Assembly: GCA_903825035.1 (NCBI GenBank) | Contig: CAIJYV010000036.1 | Coordinates: 1-52,487 of the forward strand | DNA length: 52,487 nt | Source: an uncultured Actinomycetes bacterium | GTDB lineage: Bacteria; Actinomycetota; Acidimicrobiia; Acidimicrobiales; RAAP-2 | Direction: 5' to 3' | Shown: positions 1,102 through 44,927 of the stretch, in pieces | Numbering within the stretch: position 1 is the stretch's first letter | Layout of the letters: each line of letters opens with the position of its first letter | The notes under the pieces: generated by a model | Database searches by the model: none | Seen by the model: only the letters and a program-made list of their open reading frames with translations | Told to the model about the DNA's origin: nothing | Made by a program: the position numbers and the translations under genes

Positions 1102-2391
1102 CTAGCGCTTCAAGAAGCCTTCGTAGTTACGCATCATGAGTTGTGAGTCAATCTGACGCATGGTTTCGAGCGCGACACCTACCGCGATCAACAAGGTTGT
1201 TCCGTAGTACGGGAACTTATTAATCGACCAGAGGGCCATAAGGATTGATGGCACCACCGCGACGGAAGCCAAGAAGAAGGCTCCCACGACGGTCAAGCGG
1301 CTAAGCATCTTGGCGAAGTAGCGCTCGGTGGGCTGTCCGGGGCGGATACCAGGGACGAAGCCACCTTGCTGGCGCAACATCTCGGCCTGCTGGTGAGGCT
1401 CGAAGGCGATGTAGACGTAGAAGAAGGTGAAGGCCAAGATGAGCAAGAAGTCAGTGCCGATGTAGAAGAAGCTCGTTGGGCGAAGTGAGTTGTTCACGAA
1501 AGAGGTGAAGCTCGCCCAGGGCACGATGTTCGACAAGAGAACGGGGATGTAGAGAACCGAGGAGGCGAAGATAATCGGAATAACACCCGATTGGTTGACC
1601 TTCAACGGAATGTAAGTGGAGTTTCCACCCATCTCCTTGCGACCGACTACCCGTCGAGCGAAGGTGACCGGGATTCGACGCTGACCATTGTCCATAAAGA
1701 CAATGAGTACGAGCAGCGCAAGTGAAACGAGCAAGATGATGGTGAACTTAGCGGGTCCACCTTCGAGCCAAACGGCGTGACCACCAGAAGGCATTCCCGC
1801 AACCACGTTCGCGAAAATGAGCAGGGACATACCCTGACCAATTCCACGTTGGGTAATGAGTTCAGCGAGCCACATAACAAAAGCGGTTCCCGCCGTCATG
1901 GTGAGCACCATAAACAGGCCCAACCAGAGGTTGAACTTGGGAATCAGGTCAATGGTGTAGCCCAAGAGAGCTTGGTCGTGACCGTGGAAGGCGTAGACCA
2001 GTCCGGTGGACTGCAACAGGGCCAAACCAATGGTGAGGTACCGCGTTGTTTGCGTAATCTTCTTTTGACCCGTCGCGCCCTCGTCACGCCAGACGGCGAG
2101 CTTTGGAATTACTCCGGTCAAGAGCTGGATAACGATTGACGAGGTGATGTAGGGCATCACGCCAAGGCCGAAGACGGCCAAGCGAGTCAGCGCTCCACCC
2201 GAGAAGAGGTTCAAGAAGCCCAGTACGCCTGACGAACTTGCCTTGGCCTGCAACAGCGTGACCTGGCTCCAGCTAACTCCGGGGATCGGTAAGTTGGCAC
2301 CTAACTGGTACAAACAAATTACCGAGACGGTGAAGAGGACCTTGTTGCGAAGATCCGCAACACGGAAGATATTGGCGAGACGACTGAACAC
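1102..2391 (-). CDS. secY: Protein translocase channel subunit SecY
   Basis: This is the pore-forming subunit of the SecYEG translocon in the plasma membrane. The 429-residue protein has about ten hydrophobic segments, with the conserved N-terminal part N-K-V-L-F-T and L-P-I-P-G-V, the cytoplasmic loop around Q-R-R-I-P-V, and the C-terminal R-P-G-Q-P-T / Y-F-A-K-M-L loop. It lies downstream of rplO (9 nt gap) and upstream of adk, the canonical spc-operon position. Its partner SecE is encoded at 28291-28590 in this window. Length and motifs are ordinary. Confidence 0.97.
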   Translation of the reverse strand: MFSRLANIFRVADLRNKVLFTVSVICLYQLGANLPIPGVSWSQVTLLQAKASSSGVLGFLNLFSGGALTRLAVFGLGVMPYITSSIVIQLLTGVIPKLAVWRDEGATGQKKITQTTRYLTIGLALLQSTGLVYAFHGHDQALLGYTIDLIPKFNLWLGLFMVLTMTAGTAFVMWLAELITQRGIGQGMSLLIFANVVAGMPSGGHAVWLEGGPAKFTIILLVSLALLVLIVFMDNGQRRIPVTFARRVVGRKEMGGNSTYIPLKVNQSGVIPIIFASSVLYIPVLLSNIVPWASFTSFVNNSLRPTSFFYIGTDFLLILAFTFFYVYIAFEPHQQAEMLRQQGGFVPGIRPGQPTERYFAKMLSRLTVVGAFFLASVAVVPSILMALWSINKFPYYGTTLLIAVGVALETMRQIDSQLMMRNYEGFLKR

Positions 2392-2400
2392 TTAAAAAAC

Positions 2401-2886
2401 CTACCGGTTCTGGTGCTGGTTGCCCGACGCGGCGGGACGCACCTTGAAGGGCTTGTCCAAAACAGTGGTGGTGCCACCAGCGTTCTCAATAGCGGCCTTG
2501 GCCGACTCTGAGAAGGCGTGAGCGGAAACGTTCAGCTTGGCGCTGAGCTCTCCACGACCGAGGATCTTGACGAATTCCTTCTTGCCCACGAGGCCCTTGG
2601 AAACCAAGAGGTCGAAGGTGATCTCCGAAACGCCCAATTGGGCGAGGGCGTCAACGTTGACGGGCGTGTACTCAACGCGGAAGGGGTTGGTGAAACCCTT
2701 CAGCTTGGGGATGCGCTGCATCAAGGGCAACTGTCCACCTTCGAAACCCGCAGGAATCTGGCGACGTGCCTTCTGACCCTTGGTACCACGGCCAGCGGTC
2801 TTACCGCCCTTACCGGCGATACCACGACCGACGATGCGCTTGCGCTTAATCGAGCCTTCGGGTGACTTCAGTTCGTGCAACTTCAT
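2401..2886 (-). CDS. rplO: 50S ribosomal protein L15
   Basis: L15 binds 23S rRNA late in assembly of the large subunit. The 161-residue product has the Gly/Lys/Arg-rich N-terminus (K-R-I-V-G-R-G-I-A-G-K-G-G-K-T-A-G-R-G) and the G-F-E-G-G-Q-L-P-L segment typical of L15. Its ATG overlaps the rpmD stop by one base (TAATG at 2888-2884), so translation is probably coupled. There is nothing unusual in length or context. Confidence 0.96.
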   Translation of the reverse strand: MKLHELKSPEGSIKRKRIVGRGIAGKGGKTAGRGTKGQKARRQIPAGFEGGQLPLMQRIPKLKGFTNPFRVEYTPVNVDALAQLGVSEITFDLLVSKGLVGKKEFVKILGRGELSAKLNVSAHAFSESAKAAIENAGGTTTVLDKPFKVRPAASGNQHQNR

Positions 2887-3068
2887 TAGTTGACCTCTTC
2901 TACGTTTACAAGGTGCGGAACTCGGGCAATCATGCCGCGAATTTCCGGACGGTCGGGCAAGAGATTGCTCTGGCCAATGCCACGCAGGCCGAGCGCGCGC
3001 AAGTTAGCGCGGTGCTTGGGCTTGGTGCCAATGCCGGAACGAGTCTGGGTTACTTTCAACTGAGCCAT
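2886..3068 (-). CDS. rpmD: 50S ribosomal protein L30
   Basis: This 60-residue protein of the large subunit begins M-A-Q-L-K-V-T-Q-T-R-S-G-I-G and contains the L-G-L-R-G-I-G-Q-S-N signature of bacterial L30. It sits between rpsE and rplO, its normal position, with a 2-nt gap after rpsE and a 1-base overlap with rplO. Length is typical. Confidence 0.95.
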   Translation of the reverse strand: MAQLKVTQTRSGIGTKPKHRANLRALGLRGIGQSNLLPDRPEIRGMIARVPHLVNVEEVN

Positions 3069-3070
3069 GA

Positions 3071-3631
3071 TTATTCCTCACTCACTTTGAACAGGTCGTT
3101 CTCGCGCTGACGCTCGCGGTAGGCGCGCAAGGTACCCGATGGGGTGACCTCGTCGAGGGCCTTGCCACGTGCCGCAGCGATCTGCTCGGGGGTACGAAGC
3201 TGCTTCAAACCTTCAATCGTGGCGTGGGCCACGTTGATCCCGTTGGCCGAACCGAGTGACTTAGCGATGATGTCCTTAACTCCAGCCATTTCCAAAATGG
3301 CGCGAGCGGCACCACCGGCAATAACACCGGTACCGGGAGCGGCGGGCTTCATGAGTACGCGACCAGCCCCGGCTTCGCCGAGAACTGGGTAAACAATGGT
3401 GGTGCCAGCGAGTGGTACTTCGAACAGGTTCTTGCGAGCCTCTTCAATACCCTTTTGAACGGCGAGACCAGCTTCTTTGGCCTTGCCGTATCCCAAGCCC
3501 ACACGACCCTTGCCGTCACCGATGACCATGAGTGCGGTGAAGGAGAAACGACGTCCACCCTTTACCACCTTGGACACGCGGTTCACCTTGATGGTGCGCT
3601 CTTCAAATTGTTCGAGATCAGTTGTAGTCAT
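3071..3631 (-). CDS. rpsE: 30S ribosomal protein S5
   Basis: S5 is a small-subunit protein involved in decoding fidelity and mRNA unwinding. The 186 residues include the N-terminal double-stranded-RNA-binding fold ([24 protein letters not shown]) and the C-terminal domain with [12 protein letters not shown]. The start overlaps the rplR stop by one base. It is slightly longer than E. coli S5 (166) but normal for actinobacteria. Confidence 0.96.
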
Positions 3632-3987
3632 TAGAACTCCAATCCGCCTTCACGTAGCGTGTCAGCAAAAGCCGCAACACGGCCGTGGTAGTCGAAACCA
3701 CCGCGGTCAAAGACCACGGAAGAAATCTGGGCAGCCTTCGCGCGCTCCGCCAAGAGCTTCGCGACAGCCTTCGCACCGTCGATGTTTCCACCGTTGGTGC
3801 CCTTCAACCCAGCTTCCACCGATGAAGCGGCGGCCAACGTGCGGCCCGCCTCGTCGTCGATGATCTGAGCGGAGATGTGCTTGTTCGTGCGGCTTACCGC
3901 CACGCGAGGACGAGCAGCGGTACCGGCGAGACGGCGACGAATGCGCTCGTGTCGACGGATGCGCAGTTCACGAGTAGTACGTGCCAT
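3631..3987 (-). CDS. rplR: 50S ribosomal protein L18
   Basis: L18 binds 5S rRNA with L5 and L25. The 118-residue protein has the basic N-terminus ([13 protein letters not shown]) and the C-terminal [12 protein letters not shown] signature. It shares single bases with the rplF stop and the rpsE start, consistent with tight coupling within the spc operon. Confidence 0.96.
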
Positions 3988-4526
3988 TACTTCGCAGCCT
4001 TTCCAGCCTTGCGCATAACTCGTTCACCGAGGTAGCGCACACCCTTGCCCTTGTAGGGCTCGGGCTTACGGATCTTGCGGATAGACGCAGCCACCTGGCC
4101 GACGACTTCCTTGTCTGGTCCCTTGACGATCACGCGAGTTGGCGCGGGAACTTCAAAGGTCACACCCTCGGGTGCTTTGTATTGAACGGGGTGAGAAAAG
4201 CCCAACGAGAGGTCCAGCACACCGGGTGCACCGGCGGCGGCGCGGTAACCCACGCCCTGAATCTCGAGCTCCTTGGTCCAACCCGTTGTCACGCCGACCA
4301 CCATGTTGGAGATCAGGGTGCGGGTAAGTCCGTGCAAAGCCTTGTGCTGAGTCTCTTCACTGACTCGGTCCACGGTAAGTACGTCGCCCTCTTGAGCCAA
4401 GGTAATTCCACCCGGCAGAGTGCGGACCATCGTGGCGTTCGGGCCCTTGACGGTGACCTTGCCACCAGCTACGTCAATGGTGACGCCGCTGGGGACGGTG
4501 ATTGGGTTACGGCCGATGCGCGACAT
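3987..4526 (-). CDS. rplF: 50S ribosomal protein L6
   Basis: L6 lies at the base of the L7/L12 stalk near the sarcin-ricin loop. The 179 residues begin M-S-R-I-G-R-N-P-I and end with the conserved [12 protein letters not shown]. The two-domain length is normal. A 30-nt gap separates it from rpsH upstream, one of the few non-overlapping junctions in this operon. Confidence 0.97.
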
Positions 4527-5723: not shown

Positions 5724-6025
5724 AGTGTCTCTCCACACTTGCGGCAAACACGAGTCTTCGTGTCGCCTTCAACCTTGAAACCAACCTTCGCTGGTCCCTT
5801 GTGCTTGCCACACCACAGTGCAACGTTGCTGACGTGCAGGGGCATCACCTTGTCGATGATTCCCGCCTGCATGGTCGCACCGGTTTGCTTGGTGTGGCGC
5901 TTGGCTACGTTGAGACCTTCCAGGATCACCTTGTTGGCACCTGGCAAAGCCTCTTCAACCTTCGCGCGCTCGCCGCGGTACTTGCCCGCTAGTACGAGCA
6001 CGTCGTCACCCTTACGAATTTTCAT
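5720..6025 (-). CDS. rplX: 50S ribosomal protein L24
   Basis: L24 is an assembly initiator with a KOW motif ([14 protein letters not shown] near the N-terminus). The 101-residue protein ends with a zinc-ribbon-like arrangement: W-C-G-K-H near residue 68 and V-C-R-K-C-G at the end. Such a C-terminal cysteine pair is known in actinobacterial L24. It overlaps rplN by one base and rplE by four (ATGA). Confidence 0.96.
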
Positions 6026-6393
6026 TAGAGCACCTCAGGGGCTAGAGAAATAATGCGCATGAACTTCTTGTCACGCAGTTCACGTCCGACTGGCCCAAAG
6101 ATACGGGTACCGCGGGGCTGCAACTGGTCGTTGATCAACACGGCGGCATTCTCGTCGAACTTGATGTATGAACCGTCGGGACGACGCTTTTCCTTGGCGA
6201 CGCGAACGACGACGCAGCGAACCACGTCACCCTTCTTAACGGCCGCACCGGGAATAGCGACTTTCACCGTGGCGATGAAAACATCACCAATCGATGCGTA
6301 ACGACGGCGGGTACCGCCCAACACGCGAATGCAAAGGACTTCCTTTGCACCGGAGTTGTCGGCAACCTTGAGACGGGATTCTTGCTGAATCAT
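6025..6393 (-). CDS. rplN: 50S ribosomal protein L14
   Basis: L14 sits at the inter-subunit face of the 50S subunit. The 122-residue length is the standard one, and the protein begins [16 protein letters not shown] with a conserved F-G-P-V-G-R-E-L-R near the C-terminus. Its ATG overlaps the rpsQ stop by 4 nt. Confidence 0.97.
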
Positions 6394-37011: not shown

Positions 37012-38037
37012 TTACAAAATTTTCAGTAGTTCTTCGGCGATTTGCACCGCATTAAGCGCTGCGCCCTTGCGAAGGTTGTCGTTGGAAATGAAGAACGAAA
37101 GTCCGTGTTCGAAGACTTCGGATTTCCGGATTCGCCCGACGTAACTGGGATCCTTACCCGCCGCCGCACGAGGCATCGGCAAATCGGTGACAATAACCCC
37201 GGGGGCGTCTTCCAGAATCTTCGTTGCGGCCGCGACTGAGACGGGACGATCGAAGCTCGCGGTAATCGAGAGCGAGTGCCCCGTAAAGACCGGCACGCGC
37301 ACACAGGTCGCGTCAACCAGCAGATTGGGAATCTCGAGAATCTTGCGGCTCTCGTCGCGCAACTTTTGTTCCTCGACAGTTTCGAATGATCCATCATCAA
37401 CAAGCGAACCAGCCAGAGGAATGACGTTGTGCGCAATCGTTGCGGGGAACTTCACCCCCTGGTCGAGAGGCCACGCGGCCCCATCGAAGGTTAAAACTCG
37501 AACATTGTCACTCTTGGTCAACTCAAGCTCGGTAGCGAGTTCATCGACCCCTTCGCGACCGGCACCCGATACGGCCTGGTAGGTCGAAACGGTCAATGCC
37601 GTGAGTCCATAGGCGAGGTGCAATGGTTTTATGATCGGCATCGCCGCCATGGTGGTGCAGTTGGGGTTGGCGACAATTCCCTTTGGAATGTTGCGTAGGG
37701 CGTGCGGGTTCACTTCGGAGACAACCAACGGAACCTCGGGGTCCATGCGCCAGGCCGAAGAATTGTCAACCACTATCGCACCCGCGGCAGCGAGTTTCGG
37801 TGAAAGGATTCTCGACGAGGTCGCGCCCGATGAGGCCAGGGCAATGTCAATGCCAGTGAAGTCAGCGGTGGCCGCATCTTCAACCTCGATCTGCTGCCCG
37901 TTCCAATCCAAGAAGGTGCCCGCTGAACGTGACGAGCCGAAGAAGCGAATTTCGTCAGTGGGGAAATTACGCTCGCGAAGAATCGCACGAATAACTGTGC
38001 CAACTTGACCGGTGGCGCCTACGACTGCAATTTTCAT
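37012..38037 (-). CDS. asd: Aspartate-semialdehyde dehydrogenase
   Basis: It reduces aspartyl phosphate to aspartate semialdehyde for lysine/diaminopimelate, threonine and methionine synthesis. The 341-residue protein has the NADP loop G-A-T-G-Q-V-G-T near residue 8, the catalytic cysteine in N-P-N-C-T-T, and the G-H-S-L-S-I-T histidine region. I start at the ATG 38037 (M-K-I-A-V-V-G-A-T-G), six codons inside the open frame, because TACACT lies 6 nt upstream. Its pathway partner lysC is separated from it by the helicase gene. Confidence 0.95.
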   Translation of the reverse strand: MKIAVVGATGQVGTVIRAILRERNFPTDEIRFFGSSRSAGTFLDWNGQQIEVEDAATADFTGIDIALASSGATSSRILSPKLAAAGAIVVDNSSAWRMDPEVPLVVSEVNPHALRNIPKGIVANPNCTTMAAMPIIKPLHLAYGLTALTVSTYQAVSGAGREGVDELATELELTKSDNVRVLTFDGAAWPLDQGVKFPATIAHNVIPLAGSLVDDGSFETVEEQKLRDESRKILEIPNLLVDATCVRVPVFTGHSLSITASFDRPVSVAAATKILEDAPGVIVTDLPMPRAAAGKDPSYVGRIRKSEVFEHGLSFFISNDNLRKGAALNAVQIAEELLKIL

Positions 38038-38043
38038 AGATTT

Positions 38044-38049
38044 AGTGTA
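38044..38049 (-). promoter_or_regulatory. -10 box of asd (leaderless configuration)
   Basis: TACACT (minus strand) ends 6 nt before the asd ATG, so asd has its own promoter independent of the helicase and lysC upstream. No ribosome-binding site lies between. Confidence 0.5.
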
Positions 38050-38093
38050 GGGCAAGTTACCGCAACGCCACTAGTGCGCACTCCCCGATGGCC

Positions 38094-39974
38094 TTAGAAG
38101 CGGTCGGGTCGAAGAAACTCTCGAAATTCATCAACTTGCTCCGGAAGGTCGAAGAGATCTGATTCTCGCGCCACCGCTACCAGATCATCGACAAAGGCCG
38201 CGTGGGCTCCTAGGCGAGGGTCCTCGTCGGTATCGCGAACGAAGACAATCACAAAGCGTGCATCGCGCCCATCGCTTTTGCGTCTCATGACACGACCCAT
38301 GCGTTGAATCATTTGTCGTTGTTGTTTAGAGGCGGCAATGATTACGGCCAGGTCAGCGTCTGGAACATCCACGCCCTCTTCGAGGGTTTGCACCGAGACC
38401 AGGGCCTTGGTTTCACCGGCCGAGAACCGCTCCATCACCTCTGAGCGCTCGGCGGTATCAACCTGCGAGTGATGGACCTCAGAACTTATGGTCGCGCCCA
38501 CTAGGGTCTCGTTGAGCGAGGTCGCCGAAGCGATCGACTGAGTAAATATCAAAGAACGATCTGCGTCTCGCAAAATTGGAGCCATGTGTCTGAGTGCGTC
38601 GATCTTGGCCGGTGTTTCAGCGAGGAGATTGCGCTTCTCCCGCCAACCCGAGAGCCATCGATTCGCGGCTATGCCGGCCTTCATTGTTCCGCCGCGCAGG
38701 CGAATGACGTCGTCAAGAAATACGGCGAACGGTGCGGGGCGACATCCGTACTCTCGAATCAAGGACTTGCGGAGCTTCGCGAGTTGCTTCACCAATACCG
38801 TGTAGCGCTCAGCCTCTTCGGGGGTGAAATCTACTCCCACGAAGGCGACTCGAACTTGTGCGACAACGCCCGCGCTAATCGCAGCGTCATAGCCCAACTC
38901 GTAGATCACCTTGTCGAAATACGGCATCAGAACTGTGTCGTGTGCTCCATCAGATCGTTCGTGCGTGGCCGATAGTCCGAGGCGACGAGCGAATCGCTCA
39001 TCGAGGGAGAGCTTGTTCATCTCTGAAGCGGTGCGGTGGCACTCATCAGCCACGAGTAACCCAATCGTTTGCGGCGGCAAGGCAAAGGTCCTCTGGCGAG
39101 CGGTGGCGACGGTAGTGACTACGACGTCATGACGATTTAAATCGTCATCTCGACCGTTGCCCGCTCGCCCAACACGCACCTGCGGCAGAGCATCTTCGAC
39201 CAGCTCCGCCCACTGTTTTAACAGCACCACCGTTGGCACCACGACGACGCACTTTCCCCCTTCGGCGAGTAGATCGCGAATCGCCGCGAGAGCGAGGCGA
39301 GACTTACCAGCTCCGGTCACGGCATTAGCAATACCTCGATAGTTGTTGGCCTTCCAGTTGACCAGGGCTTGAGACTGCCACTCGTAGAGTGAAAAATGAT
39401 CGCTCACCCCACTTGATGATTCAGTCGGAACGGCTCGATCGGGAGGATCACGCTTGATAAATCGCTTTAGCGCCTCGGGGTCAATCGGCTCGGGTTCAAC
39501 TGTTGCGTCGTCCTCCTCGATCTCTTCATCGGGTATCTCCTTGTCAATTACGAGATACCAAAGCGGAGGCGAACTAAAGCGGTGAGCGAAAGTATCGATG
39601 GCGGCGTAGAGAACGCTGTTTATCTGGGCGCGCTCGAGGCCAAGCTCCTCGGCGAGTTCGAGGGCGCTCTGGCCGGTCCGATTGAGCAACAACCCAACTA
39701 TCTGGTTGAGTACTTCGTCTCGCACTGAATCGCTGGGTCTCGCGCTTTTTTTCGGAGCATTCTCGGTGGCAATCTGATTCGAGTTCAGCCGCCACTTCGG
39801 TGGGGTCCCGCCAAGATTCTGAAATTGCGAATTACCGTAGAGGATCGGATTCACATCGGTTTTGTGCGCACCAATACTGGCGGCAATTTGTTTGGCGGTG
39901 AGGACCGGAAAACTTTCGAAGGCTTCGAGAATTTGTGCAGTTAGCTGCGTCTTCGTCATGGAATCAGAACTCAT
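38094..39974 (-). CDS. SF2 helicase with two N-terminal Z-alpha-like winged-helix domains
   Basis: The 626-residue protein has two small winged-helix units, then a DEAD/DEAH-type helicase. Unit 1 (about 8-65) has Lys38, Asn42, Tyr46 and P58-P-K-W61. Unit 2 (about 84-145) has Arg115, Asn119, Tyr123 and P136-P-L-W139. This spacing mimics the Z-alpha recognition set (K169, N173, Y177, P192-P193, W195 in ADAR1). An acidic linker (147-167) follows. The motor has a Q-like E-W-Q, Walker A A-V-T-G-A-G-K-S (218-225), D-E-C-H (310-313), S-A-T (335-337) and Q-R-M-G-R-V-M-R-R (557-565), closest to XPB/type III restriction-like helicases. The start has GAGAGG 5 nt upstream. It lies between lysC and asd. 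Z-form nucleic-acid binding is inference. Confidence 0.88.
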   Translation of the reverse strand: MSSDSMTKTQLTAQILEAFESFPVLTAKQIAASIGAHKTDVNPILYGNSQFQNLGGTPPKWRLNSNQIATENAPKKSARPSDSVRDEVLNQIVGLLLNRTGQSALELAEELGLERAQINSVLYAAIDTFAHRFSSPPLWYLVIDKEIPDEEIEEDDATVEPEPIDPEALKRFIKRDPPDRAVPTESSSGVSDHFSLYEWQSQALVNWKANNYRGIANAVTGAGKSRLALAAIRDLLAEGGKCVVVVPTVVLLKQWAELVEDALPQVRVGRAGNGRDDDLNRHDVVVTTVATARQRTFALPPQTIGLLVADECHRTASEMNKLSLDERFARRLGLSATHERSDGAHDTVLMPYFDKVIYELGYDAAISAGVVAQVRVAFVGVDFTPEEAERYTVLVKQLAKLRKSLIREYGCRPAPFAVFLDDVIRLRGGTMKAGIAANRWLSGWREKRNLLAETPAKIDALRHMAPILRDADRSLIFTQSIASATSLNETLVGATISSEVHHSQVDTAERSEVMERFSAGETKALVSVQTLEEGVDVPDADLAVIIAASKQQRQMIQRMGRVMRRKSDGRDARFVIVFVRDTDEDPRLGAHAAFVDDLVAVARESDLFDLPEQVDEFREFLRPDRF

Positions 39975-40021: not shown

Positions 40022-40498
40022 CTAGGCGTCGAGGCCGAAGGCGGTGTGCAACGCTCGCACCGCTTCACCGACTTTTTCGGCGGCCACTACACAAGAAATT
40101 CGAATCGAGGAGGTCGAGATCATCTCAATATTGATGCCGTGGGCGGTCAGAGTCTCAAACATCTGAGCGGTAACGCCAGGACTCGATTTCATACCAGCGC
40201 CAATCACCGAGACTCGGCCAATCTTCTCGGTGGATTCCACACTCGTTGCACCAATCTCCGTCGCCACCGCATTGCATACCCCAAGCGCACTCTCGAGATC
40301 GGTGGTAGCGACCGTAAAGGAAATGTCCGTGTGACCTTCAATTGAGGTGTTCTGCACAATCATGTCTACGTTCACTCGCGCATCAGCGAGCGCCCGAAAC
40401 AGCTTGGCCGCGATACCGGGCTTGTCCGGTACGCCAGCCACCGTAATTTTTGATTCCGACACGTCGTCGGTAATGGCGGTAACTACTGCTGCTTCCAT
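40022..40498 (-). CDS. LysC beta subunit from an internal start
   Basis: Met247 of LysC (ATG 40498-40496) is preceded by GAGGA with a 7-nt spacing. It opens the ACT-domain half as [12 protein letters not shown]. In Corynebacterium and Bacillus an equivalent in-frame internal start yields the regulatory beta subunit of an alpha2-beta2 aspartokinase. This 158-residue product is therefore likely, though not proven. Confidence 0.7.
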
Positions 40499-41236
40499 AG
40501 TGGGTTCCTCATCTACTATCCAAGTTCCTGGCTCCCAGGTAAAGCTCGATCGCACGTGCAGTGGCACCTTGTGCCGACTCGCGAACTCTACCGAGCGAAG
40601 CATCAACACTCGCCCACCAGTTGCGGCCATCTCCATCATCTCGTCGAAGGAGACCTTAGGGATTCGGCGCGCGCTCGGCACCACGCGCGGGTCGGCGCTA
40701 AAGACGCCGGTGACGTCGGTGTAAATCTCGCAGCTGTCCGCTTTCAACGCCGACGCCAGCGCGACGGCCGTGACGTCCGAACCACCGCGACCCAAGGTCG
40801 TGATGTCGCGGTCCGTTGACATTCCTTGAAATCCAGCCACTACTGGAACGAGTCCTTGTTCGAGCGCTTCGATAATCCGGTCGGGTCGCATCTCAAGAAT
40901 TTTGGCTTTGGTGTGATCGTTGTCGGTAATAATCCCCGCTTGCGAGCCAGTAAAGCTCGCTGACTGCACTCCACGAGCACCGAGGGCCATCGAAACGAGG
41001 GCCATCGAGATTCGTTCACCGGCGGTGAGCAACATATCCATTTCCCGGGGCGGGCGAACGGGTCCAATAGCGTTGGCCAGGGCGATCAGTTCATCGGTGA
41101 ATTTGCCCATCGCCGAGACCACAACCACGACCTGGTTGCCCCGTTCACGGGTTTGGGCGACGTGCTCGGCTACGGCGCGGATGCGCTCCGCGTCACCGAC
41201 TGAGGTGCCACCGTACTTTTGCACTACTAGGGCCAT
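40022..41236 (-). CDS. lysC: Aspartate kinase (alpha subunit, full length)
   Basis: It phosphorylates aspartate, the first step towards lysine, threonine, methionine and diaminopimelate. The 404-residue protein starts [10 protein letters not shown] near residue 4 and has G-R-G-G-S-D at 149-154. Two C-terminal ACT domains (from about 260) contain [10 protein letters not shown] and [10 protein letters not shown], which bind feedback effectors. TATCCT lies 6 nt upstream of the ATG, so it is likely leaderless. It is divergent from the PPIase gene across 57 bp. Confidence 0.96.
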
Positions 41237-41248: not shown

Positions 41249-41280
41249 CTGGAGTGAACTTTGTCCTTAGATTTGGCTAG

Positions 41281-41286
41281 TAAAGT
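41281..41286 (+). promoter_or_regulatory. -10 box of the membrane PPIase gene (leaderless configuration)
   Basis: TAAAGT ends 7 nt before the ATG at 41294. No ribosome-binding site is present in between. Confidence 0.45.
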
Positions 41287-41293
41287 CGCACCC

Positions 41294-42166
41294 ATGGCAA
41301 CTACCAAACGTCAACGTCAAAAGGCCGCTCGTCGAAACAAGATTGAGCGCGAAAATAAGGAAGCGAAGCGTCGCCAGATGCTGCGCCGTTCGGTCATCGG
41401 CATCGTCGTGGCCGTGCTCGTGCTGGGATCAGGCGCCCTGATCTTCCAAGGTGGCGGCACAACGACCACCACTCTGGCTTCAACTACGACCACCTCGAGT
41501 GCCCTCACGACTTCAACCACCGCACCAGTAACGACCACCACCGGCGTGCGAGCTCCTTCGGTGACTCAGGCCCAGGCTGATGCGTTGGCTACCCAAGCAG
41601 GATGCCCCGCCTCGACCGCACTGCGAGTCAACAACCTGACTTGGTCTCACGCTCCGGCCATGACCATCGATCGCTCGAAGACCTACACCGCGAACTTTGT
41701 TACGACCGCGGGTAACTTCTCGGTGCGACTGAACGCCTCGACTGCGCCCCAGACGGTGAACAACTTCGTGTTCTTGGCTCAGCACAATTACTACCACTGC
41801 GTTATCTTCCACCGCGTCATTCCTGGTTTCATGGAACAGACCGGTGACCCCACTGGTTTGGGTACTGGTGGCCCTGGGTACACCATCGCTGACGAGAACC
41901 CCAAGGCTGGCAACCCGACATACCCATTGTTCTCAGTTGCCATGGCCAACACTGGTGCCCCTCACTCGGGTGGCTCACAGTTCTTTATCGTGACCGGCAC
42001 CACTGGCGAGACCCTGCCTAACTCCTATGCCCTCTTCGGTCAAGTAGTCAGCGGCACCGCAGCGGTCATGACAATCAACAACGCTGGTAACCCCAGCTCA
42101 TCATCCAACGGTATGCCACCAGTGGTGACCCACCGCATCCTCTCGATTACGGTGACCCACAACTAA
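41294..42166 (+). CDS. Membrane-anchored cyclophilin-type peptidyl-prolyl isomerase
   Basis: It catalyses cis-trans isomerisation of proline bonds, presumably outside the membrane. The 290-residue protein has a basic, helical cytoplasmic N-terminus, one membrane helix (about 33-52), a threonine/serine-rich linker (about 54-90) and a cyclophilin domain with V-I-F-H-R-V-I-P-G-F-M, Q-T-G-D-P-T-G and S-G-G-S-Q-F-F. The catalytic arginine (F-H-R) is present. The start is the ATG at 41294; the open frame extends 11 codons upstream without a plausible start. It overlaps the next PPIase gene by one base. Confidence 0.92.
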   Translation: MATTKRQRQKAARRNKIERENKEAKRRQMLRRSVIGIVVAVLVLGSGALIFQGGGTTTTTLASTTTTSSALTTSTTAPVTTTTGVRAPSVTQAQADALATQAGCPASTALRVNNLTWSHAPAMTIDRSKTYTANFVTTAGNFSVRLNASTAPQTVNNFVFLAQHNYYHCVIFHRVIPGFMEQTGDPTGLGTGGPGYTIADENPKAGNPTYPLFSVAMANTGAPHSGGSQFFIVTGTTGETLPNSYALFGQVVSGTAAVMTINNAGNPSSSSNGMPPVVTHRILSITVTHN

Positions 42167-42717
42167 TGAGCGACCTGATCCCAAACCCCGACGGTTCGAG
42201 CGAGAAGCGCCAGAAGTTCGACGCTGCTCCCCCCATGATCATTGACCCAGCGAAGAACTACTCGGCGACGATGGTGACTTCCAAGGGAACGCTCGAGATG
42301 GTCCTCGACGCCGCCGCAGCGCCGGTAACCGTTAACAGTTTCGTGTTCCTGGCTCGCTGGCACTACTACGACGGCATTGTCTTTCACCGCGTTATTCCTG
42401 GGTTCGTCTTGCAAGGCGGCGACCCCACCGGAACTGGAGCGGGAGGTCCTGGATACCGTTTCGATGATGAACTTCCCAAAGCTGGTCGTTACGAGCTCGG
42501 TAGTTTGGCCATGGCTAACGCTGGACCCAACACCAACGGATCACAGTTCTTTGTGATCTCTGGTCCTGACGGCATGCGCCTGCCTCCGCTCTATGCACTG
42601 TTCGGCAAGGTGGTTAAGGGACTTGATGTTGTTCAGGCTATTAACGACATTGGCACCGCTTCGGGTCGCCCGAACGAGCAAGTCGTTATTGAATCAGTAA
42701 CGATTCACGAGAATTAA
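42166..42717 (+). CDS. Cyclophilin-type peptidyl-prolyl isomerase
   Basis: The 183-residue protein has no signal peptide or membrane helix, so it should be cytoplasmic. It keeps F-H-R-V-I-P-G-F-V-L-Q-G-G-D-P-T-G, N-G-S-Q-F-F and Y-A-L-F-G-K-V. It is clearly homologous to the preceding membrane-anchored copy, and the pair overlaps as TAATG at 42164-42168, so one arose by tandem duplication and they are translated together. Confidence 0.93.
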   Translation: MSDLIPNPDGSSEKRQKFDAAPPMIIDPAKNYSATMVTSKGTLEMVLDAAAAPVTVNSFVFLARWHYYDGIVFHRVIPGFVLQGGDPTGTGAGGPGYRFDDELPKAGRYELGSLAMANAGPNTNGSQFFVISGPDGMRLPPLYALFGKVVKGLDVVQAINDIGTASGRPNEQVVIESVTIHEN

Positions 42718-42838: not shown

Positions 42839-43807
42839 ATGAAATTTCGCGGACTTGGAAAGTGGGCTAGTTACTTAGCACTTGCTTCATCCCCAGTTTT
42901 GGTGTCGTCAACCGCTTCGAACGCGATACCGAGTGCGCCAATGCAAACATTCAGCTATTAGATGCAAACCGTGTCACCAACTAGTTTGTATAACTTAGGG
43001 TATGCCATCGGTGCTCGAGCGCTAGCTGGAACAATTCCCCAGACCGCGCTTGTGGTACTAGATTGGGGTGCGCCATACTGTTCTTCAGCTTCGAACTGTG
43101 GCACGACGCTTTTTTCAGGCGCATACCAGACTACTAATGCCGAGCTAGCAGCTGCCGAGCAATTTGGACTTGGTTTTTACACCGGTTCCGGGGTTGATGT
43201 TACCGCAAGAGTTTTTGTGGCAATGGGTACTTCCAATAACGGAAGTTGGATGGCCTCAGGTTCTAACGCATTCCAACATGGTGTCGCTTGGGCCAACATG
43301 GTAACTAATGGAAATAATTGGCTTCAAACCAACGGATACATTTCTCAAGTTCAGCTTCGTGCTGCAATCGATGCCGAGCAAGGTTGGAATACTTATCCTC
43401 CAACACGTCAGTGGGCAGTCGGTTATACGAGCGTCTCGACAACATATTTTTGGAACTTCGGGAGCGCATCCGGATGCCCACCAATTGGCACCTGCAATAA
43501 TGGGTGGACTCAAGCCGACATACATGAGATTTCATATGGCTTTGCCCCTGCGGAACCGTTACCTGAAATTTACAATCAGAGTACCGCCTCGGAATGGGCA
43601 GCGATCGCAAATAGTAATTACATGCAATTCTTAGGCGCGATGTCTCAGTGGCAAGCATGTGCTGATCAAGGATCGTCTTGCGTTGGTGAAGACTTCACTC
43701 CAACTGCCGTGTGGAACGCCCTCTACACATCCCTCAACTGCTCTGGATGTGCCGCTCAAACACCCCCACATGTAACTGACATTAGATGGAAACTTTTAGC
43801 GAATTAG
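42839..43807 (+). pseudogene. Secreted cysteine-rich protein gene interrupted by an in-frame TAG
   Basis: An ATG at 42839 with GGGGGC upstream starts a 40-codon signal peptide (M-K-F-R-G-L-G-K-W-A..., cleavage likely near S-N-A). The frame then meets TAG at 42959-42961 and continues immediately at ATG 42962 for 281 codons to 43807. The second part alone has no ribosome-binding site and no signal peptide, so the two are one gene. The mature part has eight cysteines in four close pairs (40/46, 172/178, 233/240, 260/263) and strands L-V-V-L-D-W-G and A-A-I-D-A-E, a D-x-E pattern seen in GH25-like TIM barrels. The fold is a guess. Readthrough or a sequence error are alternatives to a true pseudogene. 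Confidence 0.75.
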
Positions 43808-43842
43808 CCGACAATACAAACATAGAAAGAGGAATTGAGATT

Positions 43843-44391
43843 ATGAAAAGGTTTTTTACCGTACTTGCAGTATTTGCAGTTTCGTTATGCATTACCCTCA
43901 CAGGAATTAATCACGCAAAGGCGTCCCTACTTTGCCCGGATTCAAAGTCCGGATTTGCTGGTTGCTGGACTGCACCTTTCGGCTATGTCCCCGCTGCAAA
44001 AAATATTTCAGGTTTAAGTTCCCCTGTTGTTAATTCAGTGGCTCAAAACACCTTACCCCGGGGTCTTGGCACGATAAATGATTTAATTCCAAGCCCCTTC
44101 TCGTCAGAACAATACTTGATTTCAAATGAGTACGTAACTTTGGAAGGGCCGCTAACTGCAATTTACTTTGCTGGGTTTAACGCTCAAAACCCTTCGCAAG
44201 GAATTGTCGCCGAACTCACAACGCCTACCAATGAGAATGACCAGGCGACTCAGCCAACGCTTAAGGTTTTTGATGCCCCCGGTACTGTTGGCAAACTTAC
44301 TTTCACGTCTGTCAAGGGCAACATCTTGACAATAGCGACCCAAGGCGCATCGACGATCACTTTCGACTTAATCGCTCATTCATTCGGATGA
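43843..44391 (+). CDS. Secreted protein of unknown function
   Basis: I do not recognise this 182-residue family. It has a clear Sec signal peptide (M-K-R-F-F-T-V-L-A-V-F-A-V..., cleavage near H-A-K-A-S, about residue 27) and two cysteines just after it (L-C-P-D, G-C-W). The rest is beta-prone with T-L-K-V-F-D-A-P-G and I-L-T-I-A-T. The start is the ATG at 43843 with AGAGGA about 9 nt upstream; the longer open frame overlaps the preceding gene. It overlaps the next gene by 4 nt (ATGA). Codon use is more AT-rich than in flanking genes. Confidence 0.75.
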   Translation: MKRFFTVLAVFAVSLCITLTGINHAKASLLCPDSKSGFAGCWTAPFGYVPAAKNISGLSSPVVNSVAQNTLPRGLGTINDLIPSPFSSEQYLISNEYVTLEGPLTAIYFAGFNAQNPSQGIVAELTTPTNENDQATQPTLKVFDAPGTVGKLTFTSVKGNILTIATQGASTITFDLIAHSFG

Positions 44392-44927
44392 ATAATTTCT
44401 GGCGCGAAATAGGAGTACCCCTAATTCGCAAAGCGAGTGCGTCAATTTTGGTTGCAGTTTTAATTTCGTGCTCGAATCTAAACATGGAATTGGCTAGAGC
44501 AAGTAATTTTCCAGGTAAATCAGCTAGGCCAAATTTTTACAGAGTGCTGGGCGTTAAACCTAGAACAGTTTCATCAAAAATGGGGCTTGAATTTATTCCG
44601 ACCTCGCAGACGATTAAAACAAGAGTGTCTAGACAAGTTGCGCTGAATCTGGTACGAGGCAACTACTTTCCATCAAATGGAAGAGTGCCCGTTCTAACTA
44701 TGTTCAAGTCGCAGGCACTTGTCTTAAAAACCAATGGGCCATTGGGTGCATTTCAGGGTCGTACAATTTCGTTGTGGATTGTCGTCATGAAAGCCAATGA
44801 AACTCTCGATACTTGGCTGTTGACAGCCATAAAGGGGCCGACCGCCTGGGATGCAGTGATTTTTAACGCGGACACCAGAAAATTCTTCGGTGTGGCAAGC
44901 GGCACAACACGCCTTAACTTTAACTAA
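44388..44927 (+). CDS. Putative secreted lipoprotein of unknown function
   Basis: This 179-residue product is unrecognised. A basic N-region (residues 1-15), a hydrophobic stretch (18-27) and the lipobox L-I-S-C with Cys28 suggest a lipoprotein, although a signal-anchor is possible. The mature part is basic, with the repeated T-S/T-I-K-T-R and beta-strand patterns such as I-S-L-W-I-V-V-M-K. It is translationally coupled to the gene before it (ATGA at 44388-44391), so both products probably act together at the cell surface. No terminator hairpin was seen after it. Confidence 0.7.
   Translation: MNNFWREIGVPLIRKASASILVAVLISCSNLNMELARASNFPGKSARPNFYRVLGVKPRTVSSKMGLEFIPTSQTIKTRVSRQVALNLVRGNYFPSNGRVPVLTMFKSQALVLKTNGPLGAFQGRTISLWIVVMKANETLDTWLLTAIKGPTAWDAVIFNADTRKFFGVASGTTRLNFN

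Follow-up and report, generated by a model that had tools for sequence, protein, structure and literature searches.

A bacterial XPB-like ATPase with two N-terminal domains of putative Zα type

Z-DNA presumably arises in bacterial cells, and a gene on contig CAIJYV010000036.1 (GenBank assembly GCA_903825035.1) raises the question of whether a bacterial motor protein might recognize it. The contig comes from an uncultured Actinomycetes bacterium with a small genome (Acidimicrobiales; RAAP-2), and the stretch that we analysed, called the window below, comprises its positions 1 to 52,487 (52,487 nucleotides). An earlier note, made from the letters of the DNA, had proposed that the gene encodes a superfamily 2 (SF2) helicase headed by two winged helices that resemble Zα, the domain with which ADAR1 reads left-handed nucleic acid. 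Our computational follow-up leads us to favor, by somewhat more belief than doubt, a protein in which an XPB-like SF2 ATPase is joined to two Zα-type domains that carry the Asn, Tyr, Pro-Pro, and Trp of the Z-form recognition set. The fusion, the intact residues, and their spread can be demonstrated by comparing sequences, and the fold by structure prediction; that the units, as putative readers, bind Z-form nucleic acid is probable. The gene and its parts are as follows.

38094..39974, minus strand: the whole gene, 626 amino acids with an ATG start, comprising two winged helices of putative Zα type and an SF2 ATPase
39780..39953, minus strand: unit 1, residues 8-65, a winged helix; its best stretch against the Pfam model PF02295 is 14-64
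39540..39731, minus strand: unit 2, residues 82-145, a winged helix by PF02295 and AlphaFold2
39408..39539, minus strand: residues 146-189, an acidic linker, disordered in part
38220..39407, minus strand: SF2 ATPase core, residues 190-585, XPB-like, with GAGKS, DECH, SAT, and QRMGRVMRR and with Pfam matches to ResIII and Helicase_C

Together the two units span residues 8-145 (nucleotides 39953-39540). The residues on which the proposal was built are found in the translation where the earlier note had placed them: K38, N42, and Y46 followed by P58-P59-x-W61 in unit 1 and R115, N119, and Y123 followed by P136-P137-x-W139 in unit 2. AlphaFold2 puts the first three of unit 1 on helix 38-47 and the Trp of T57-P58-P59-x-W61 on strand 60-63; the corresponding elements of unit 2 are helix 115-124 and strand 138-141. 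Both units have the order and spacing of ADAR1, with N-x3-Y, PPxW, and a basic residue four positions before the Asn. The claim that the wing is 2-3 residues shorter also holds, as 11 residues separate Y46 from P58 and 12 separate Y123 from P136, 3 and 2 fewer than the 14 between Y177 and P192 of ADAR1 (PMC11298590). According to the same source, the NxxxY motif is essential and double mutation of N173 and Y177 abolishes binding, W195 matters for stability and binding, and P192 and P193 contribute contacts. The strict pattern [KR]xxxNxxxY(9-14)PPxW occurs twice among the 407 six-frame open reading frames (ORFs) of at least 60 amino acids in the window (50,192 residues), both times in the N-terminus of the helicase. 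When the 161-residue N-terminus was shuffled 200,000 times, one shuffle had a single match and none had two. The pattern is therefore present in the window beyond chance.

Comparison with the z-alpha model of Pfam, PF02295, bore out the assignment for the whole protein (26.7 bits) and for the N-terminus alone (32.7 bits), where the match falls in two stretches and exceeds the cut-off of 21, but not for either unit by itself, and the model proved unspecific in the phylum. A search of the organism's own genome listed the two units as the only PF02295 matches at E ≤ 10 and listed none at E ≤ 0.001 or at E ≤ 0.01. Searched against the PDB with phmmer, the N-terminus matched ADAR1 and ORF112 (best E, 1.3e-5). 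NCBIfam and PHROGs gave it no useful name; the best PHROGs match was a partial one to a Ren-like exclusion protein (E 3.7e-4).

We also built a profile, A3, from 31 related bacterial domains; its rows were picked for having the Asn and the Tyr, while the Trp and the preceding Pro were left unselected. Identity to unit 2 is 18-37% in 28 of 30 rows. Against the PDB, A3 gave 34 rows at E ≤ 0.031, of which 29 are entries for ADAR1, PKZ, E3, ORF112, I73R, 34L, or ZBP1/DLM-1 (one of them an H5-ADAR1 chimera). Two of the remainder have uninformative names (4hob, 2l4m), and the other three (8vd6, 6f8s, 6f8h) are a designed CAP repeat, matched in part at 1.2e-6, and two XRE-regulator sequences at 0.006-0.007. 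The best E values were 4.5e-11 for ADAR1, 2e-9 for PKZ, 1.3e-7 for E3, 2.5e-6 for ORF112, 5.4e-6 for I73R, and 4.8e-3 for ZBP1. Among Pfam families, PF02295 led with matches to 21 of the 31 A3 members at E ≤ 1, ahead of a family that matched 9 of 31. A control profile, A5, was made from 19 relatives in which the N-Y pair is missing; ADAR1 is nevertheless its first PDB row, at E 0.0011.

Across the phylum, at least 19 of 396 genomes have a PF02295 match at E ≤ 0.01, a setting that missed the window's own genome, and 9 of these matches are over the cut-off. We read the motif in each of the 19 matches with an extension of 15 residues past its end. The full set, NxxxY plus PxW, is present in three: two helicases of the same family (L136, L200) and a 187-amino-acid protein (L137). 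The last of these, from a genome in another family of the same order (G316; 1480-2043, minus strand), ends in KxxxNxxxY...PPMW and has no helicase. In this protein the domain has a second architecture.

We modeled the tandem with AlphaFold2 from an alignment of 33 rows and obtained two winged helices at a mean predicted local distance difference test score (pLDDT) of 88. As the earlier note had anticipated, the model places the Asn and Tyr of both units on helix 3 and W61 and W139 on the last strand of the wing. The superposition that it had suggested, on PDB entry 1QBJ, came out close: unit 2 matches 1qbj_A, the Zα of ADAR1, with Z 10.4 and a root-mean-square deviation of 0.9 over 60 of 65 residues, and the Zα of PKZ (4kmf) with Z 10.9 and 0.8 Å over 60 of 62 residues. 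In a library of viral structures, Zα proteins (Solumvirus, ORF112, and the poxvirus E3 type) are intermixed with many other winged helices, and the best matches, taken over both units, deviate by about 15-17 Å. Modeling of the full-length protein (pLDDT 87.4; predicted template modeling score 0.71) gave low-confidence linkers at residues 68-76 and 145-159, the latter with pLDDT below 50. Because of these linkers, the model does not place the units on the motor.

How far do the recognition residues extend among relatives? In the taxonomic family, a search at E ≤ 1e-20 found the helicase in 14 of 172 genomes. Within these 14 sequences, the window's included, the Asn is kept in 12, the Tyr in 12 (the other two have Phe), and P137 and W139 in all 14. 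For a wider view we pooled the loci of this search with those of a scan of named genomes (the best 80 of 199 relatives) and of a phylum search (32 of 396 genomes at E ≤ 1e-60). A recognizable helicase ORF was found in 124 of 130 loci, some genomes having been fetched twice. The pool yielded 73 distinct N-terminal domains, found with a profile that was seeded from the window's family and so favors look-alikes; 33 have both Asn and Tyr, 38 have neither, 2 have only the Tyr, and none has only the Asn. The two residues are thus both present or both absent in 71 of 73, and the Trp is missing from none of the 71 distinct domains whose sequence extends to its column. The survey of homologues therefore upholds conservation of the set within the family, where it is mostly kept, but not among distant helicase relatives, in which Asn and Tyr vary while the Trp is constant. 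In our reading, the domain is a winged helix related to Zα, and one part of the family has the recognition set intact.

Animal Zα proteins often carry the domain in tandem. The duplication described for the window's protein is real, but it is not the general state, as tandem units occur in only 3 of the 14 family sequences (G000, G158, and G160). In Actinobacteria bacterium IMCC26256 (L030, CP011489.1; 5995-8226, plus strand) the helicase has three units, the middle one with Lys and Val in place of the Asn and Tyr. At L038, a separate one-unit Zα ORF (5863-6189, plus strand) lies in another frame, stops where the helicase probably begins, and is close in sequence to the helicase's own unit; it is either a recent duplication or an assembly fault. 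Judging from the three tandem genomes, L030, and L038, the units appear to have multiplied more than once.

Records assigned by name to five phyla contain fusions that bear the motif: Actinomycetota, Bacteroidota (L048, L083), Verrucomicrobiota (L034), Gemmatimonadota (L050, L057), and Bacillota (L066). Most of these records are single contigs from uncultured or metagenome-derived sources, and one or another may be misbinned. The domain is rare: when three phylum samples were searched at E ≤ 0.001 (center genomes included), 8 of 396, 3 of 299, and 7 of 296 genomes matched, and 4 of the last 7 are partial helix-turn-helix matches only. A quickly built tree of 107 cores, in which long branches join one another, requires 5 changes for the motif-bearing state; 39 of the 107 rows were typed as having no domain. 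We considered whether the co-conservation of Asn and Tyr could serve as proof of function and rejected this, as the tree holds just 3 independent pairs, which is not significant.

Similar winged helices were seen beside other enzymes. ORFs at the matched ends of L163, L170, and L165, from the phyla of G563 and G560, begin with Zα-like winged helices (Ser or Asn at the Asn position, LY, Trp, no PP) that head large helicases of superfamily 1 (SF1) type, the one at L165 being UvrD-like; these types were judged by eye. Directly downstream of the Bacillota Zα-helicase at L066 lie genes for a 355-amino-acid winged-helix protein with NxxLY (1803-2870, plus strand) and for a PDDEXK_4 nuclease (2927-4117, plus strand; E 1.9e-35), and the three genes are perhaps one system. 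In a 256-amino-acid protein at L139 (1462-2232, plus strand), a winged helix with NxxLY is fused to a region that weakly resembles a NERD nuclease (12.6 bits, short of the cut-off).

What kind of motor do the units head? The closest solved relatives of the core are XPB proteins, both in sequence (XPBII, E 9.4e-37 by phmmer) and in fold (6p4w, E 1.5e-24 by Foldseek, with FANCM and MDA5/LGP2 lower). The Walker A, DExH, SAT, and QxxGRxxR motifs are present in two RecA domains, and G223, K224, D310, E311, H313, A336, T337, Q557, R558, G560, R561, and R564 are invariant in 39 rows. Two NCBIfam models match well under their cut-offs: XPB (NF045503) with 89.9 bits against 610 and dnd_restrict_1 (TIGR04095) with 159.4 bits against 600 (E 1.5e-46).

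In the window, the helicase gene has these neighbors, both named by eye.

40022..41236, minus strand: ask, the upstream neighbor, of aspartokinase type, 47 nucleotides before the helicase
37012..38055, minus strand: asd, the downstream neighbor, of aspartate-semialdehyde-dehydrogenase type, 38 nucleotides after the helicase

The three genes, all on one strand, probably form one operon. In 16 chosen genomes of the genus, ask and asd are direct neighbors in 14; 6 of these have the helicase elsewhere, and 8 are without it at the thresholds used. The helicase precedes asd in G158 and G160; the same two-unit proteins are encoded on the named contigs L021 and L029, where ask lies upstream. The gene has thus moved into the operon in one small clade, that of the window. 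On the opposite strand next to ask are two adjacent genes for cyclophilin-type proline isomerases, identified by eye (41261-42166 and 42166-42717, plus strand), and further on three adjacent ORFs of 281, 201, and 179 amino acids with no name by eye (42962-44927, plus strand), the latter two of which begin like secreted proteins.

The earlier note had raised a stress- or phage-related role, and we asked what surrounds the helicase at other loci. Neighbor sets omitted ORFs of more than 1500 amino acids and used gene calls made by length and by G+C content at third codon positions; PADLOC counts are of families, not of proteins, and one protein can match many. Around 14 motif-bearing loci outside the window's family (97 ORFs) we counted 103 PADLOC families at E ≤ 1e-20. 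Named defense neighbors include DrmB and DrmC (L030), a DrmD-like protein (L047), DrmMI/type IIG (L034), RTasNERD-Hel and DruK (L067), and NsnB (L083), and at L048 a type III methylase is encoded directly upstream of the helicase (E 1.3e-178). At L030 the three-unit helicase gene lies downstream of the DrmB and DrmC genes (DISARM) and of two genes that matched no Pfam family at E ≤ 0.001. In a control of 14 loci where the helicase lacks the domain (104 ORFs), we counted 70 PADLOC families, for example BrxL, DndB/C, mREase_IV, and DruE. Zα as a marker of defense islands is weakened by this control, and the helicase family seems to live near defense genes with or without it. The phage-related role thus retains weak support only, since defense-type neighbors also surround relatives that have no such domain. 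The whole protein had no match at E ≤ 1e-20 in 50,697 phage records, and plasmids gave 8 records, all below 37% identity and mostly over the helicase. Among the neighbors at 80 loci, the 25 largest clusters held nothing conserved beyond close relatives and apparent long spurious ORFs.

Several results weigh against a Zα identity. In the genome search, PF02295 gave unit 1 18.4 bits and unit 2 16.5 bits, each below the cut-off, which is passed only by both units together; when unit 2 was scanned alone, HTH_9 scored 18.5 bits versus 18.3 for z-alpha, both again under the cut-off. Sixteen of the 19 listed phylum matches to PF02295 are without the NxxxY-plus-PxW set, 3 of them having an NxxxY string but no PxW. 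The PDB and Pfam results of A3 are partly circular because its rows were chosen for having the Asn and the Tyr. Masking of the motif columns (K, N, Y, P, P, W) left PKZ at E 0.0075 and ADAR1 above 1, behind two designed proteins; the masked profile loses nearly all of the Zα signal, and therefore the case rests on the recognition residues, with homology beyond the motif weakly supported. On unit 1 the IclR regulator TtgV reaches Z 10.5, which equals what Zα reaches on unit 2, and in the Foldseek ranking the Zα of PKZ comes after four multi-winged-helix proteins, although these deviate by 11-18 Å over both units. Since IclR domains tie for unit 1, superposition of the fold is not decisive; the winged helix that the models predict is generic and common to binders of right-handed DNA. 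ADAR1 has Lys and Arg, which we take to be nucleic-acid contacts, where unit 1 has T39 and P43, and unit 2 has A116 and S120 there. Finally, of two Zα-like domains from bacteria tested in PMC11298590, neither bound Z-form nucleic acid or flipped it; those lacked the Asn and the Tyr. Such results could mean that the units are ordinary winged helices of TrmB, MarR, or IclR type that show the motif by accident and have no relation to Zα: other winged-helix families of Pfam match them weakly, as HTH_9 does, the masked profile is unspecific, and the fold is generic. We think this very improbable. Most z-alpha matches listed in the phylum lack the motif set, yet it is present twice here and arose twice in none of the shuffles; it recurs in records from five phyla; and even the profile of relatives that lack the N-Y pair has ADAR1 as its first PDB row. 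Deep homology with Zα is likely, as we read the sequences, though not proved.

A Zα origin or likeness would still leave the ligand to be decided. The units might read B-DNA, a double-strand-single-strand or Holliday junction, double-stranded RNA, or a G-quadruplex; they would then be an unremarkable accessory module for loading the helicase, with the Asn, Tyr, and PPxW touching a right-handed backbone or stacking on G-tetrads. That their fold is shared with binders of right-handed DNA speaks for this, as do the many helicase relatives that keep the winged helix and Trp without the Asn and Tyr or in which no such domain was found (the 39 tree rows). The title of PMC13136903 (2026) adds that the Zα and Zβ of ADAR1 and ZBP1 bind G-quadruplexes. 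Such a reader would have no need of the Zα contact set, yet the set is kept across five phyla in domains of the low identity to unit 2 noted for A3, by selection in the case of the Asn and Tyr but not of the Trp and Pro, and we regard another ligand as unlikely, though a serious contender. A further proposal concerns the role of the protein and is compatible with Z-form binding: the family would be an antiphage or antiplasmid effector, in which the units detect foreign nucleic acid that is underwound or in Z-form and the helicase acts together with neighboring restriction or modification genes, the window's copy having settled in a housekeeping operon. It draws on the PADLOC families around the motif-bearing loci and the methylase gene at L048, on the resemblance of the core to PbeA (E 3.2e-65), on the patchy presence of the gene in the family, and on its shifted position within the genus. 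The control loci, however, tie the defense link to the helicase family and not to the domain; 10 of the 20 neighbors that we scanned singly had no PADLOC match at 1e-20, and the phage records gave none for the helicase. Some PADLOC models resemble housekeeping proteins, and the window's copy itself sits between ask and asd (by eye; the PADLOC scans covered other loci). We consider an effector role rather doubtful. Overall, the protein may serve either topology upkeep or defense.

If the units are Zα-type readers, the protein may work as follows. The twin domains would dock on a left-handed or easily flipped duplex through the Asn and Tyr of helix 3 and the PP-x-W at the wing; a candidate target is alternating purine-pyrimidine DNA that is negatively supercoiled behind a polymerase or in invading DNA. 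Two units could add avidity, as in the tandem animal proteins, and the flexible acidic linker would let the ATPase load beside the Z-prone stretch, where ATP might be used to strip, rewind, or open it. Alternatively, a partner nuclease or methylase could be brought in where the gene sits in a defense island. That the ATPase acts in this putative way at Z-form nucleic acid or at B-Z junctions is a tentative proposal, held less firmly than binding by the units. Quite unlikely, in our estimate, is the broadest extension: that true Z-form-reading Zα in bacteria is the targeting part of SF1 and SF2 motors, predates its animal and viral counterparts, is more widespread than they are, and forms a prokaryotic surveillance module for left-handed DNA (or RNA) that resides partly in defense islands and is a possible source of animal and viral Zα. 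Z-binding, if true, would give a first handle on readers of left-handed DNA in bacteria, and an ATPase-fused family with the Asn, Tyr, Pro, and Trp intact in five phyla would bear on the origin of animal Zα. The central question is accessible by circular dichroism with a domain of 60 residues.

We found no paper on a bacterial Zα-helicase fusion in the open-access literature, which leaves most subscription journals outside its coverage, and the part of that literature that we searched yielded no bacterial protein whose Zα recognition set is intact; the excerpts of PMC12839542 and PMC12784952 contain no such fusion. PMC11298590 describes Zα in eukaryotes and giant viruses, includes archaeal homologues in its tree, and reports bacterial Zα-like domains of sigma-54-interacting regulators, some with Ser and Asn for N173 and Y177. 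In PMC11293857, ArsR and TFE are proposed as Zα-related folds with the Asn replaced by Arg, and PMC5817196 calls the C-terminal domain of DprA Zα/DLM-1.

How does the protein compare with these known systems? With the Zα domains of ADAR1, ZBP1, PKZ, E3, ORF112, and I73R, its units share the order and spacing of N-x3-Y and PPxW, the basic residue four before the Asn, the predicted winged helix, and, with the animal proteins, the tandem arrangement; they differ in being bacterial, in the wing shorter by 2-3 residues, and in their fusion partner, an SF2 ATPase where the known proteins have a deaminase, a kinase, or a domain that binds double-stranded RNA. The domains of the sigma-54-interacting regulators are likewise bacterial winged helices of Zα fold that keep the Trp, but the helicase units keep both the Asn and the Tyr. 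DprA, ArsR, and TFE, compared here by description only, are earlier cases of the Zα label on prokaryotic winged helices; DprA has a Rossmann-fold core and is not a helicase, and in ArsR and TFE the Asn is exchanged as described in PMC11293857. The ATPase core resembles that of archaeal XPB (XPBII/RAD25) in sequence and fold, but the phmmer match begins at residue 190 and the N-terminal part of XPB is unmatched, with the putative Zα units in its place. The core also resembles the phosphorothioate-linked SF2 proteins PbeA and dnd_restrict_1, and the PADLOC model of PbeA covers residues 180-572. PbeA, which the PbeABCD system combines with PbeB-D genes, is an HKD/PLD nuclease-helicase (PMC10853773, PMC6459918), whereas a Pfam scan of the window's protein gave no PLD nuclease domain and its immediate neighbors, the only genes considered for PbeB-D, look like ask and asd.

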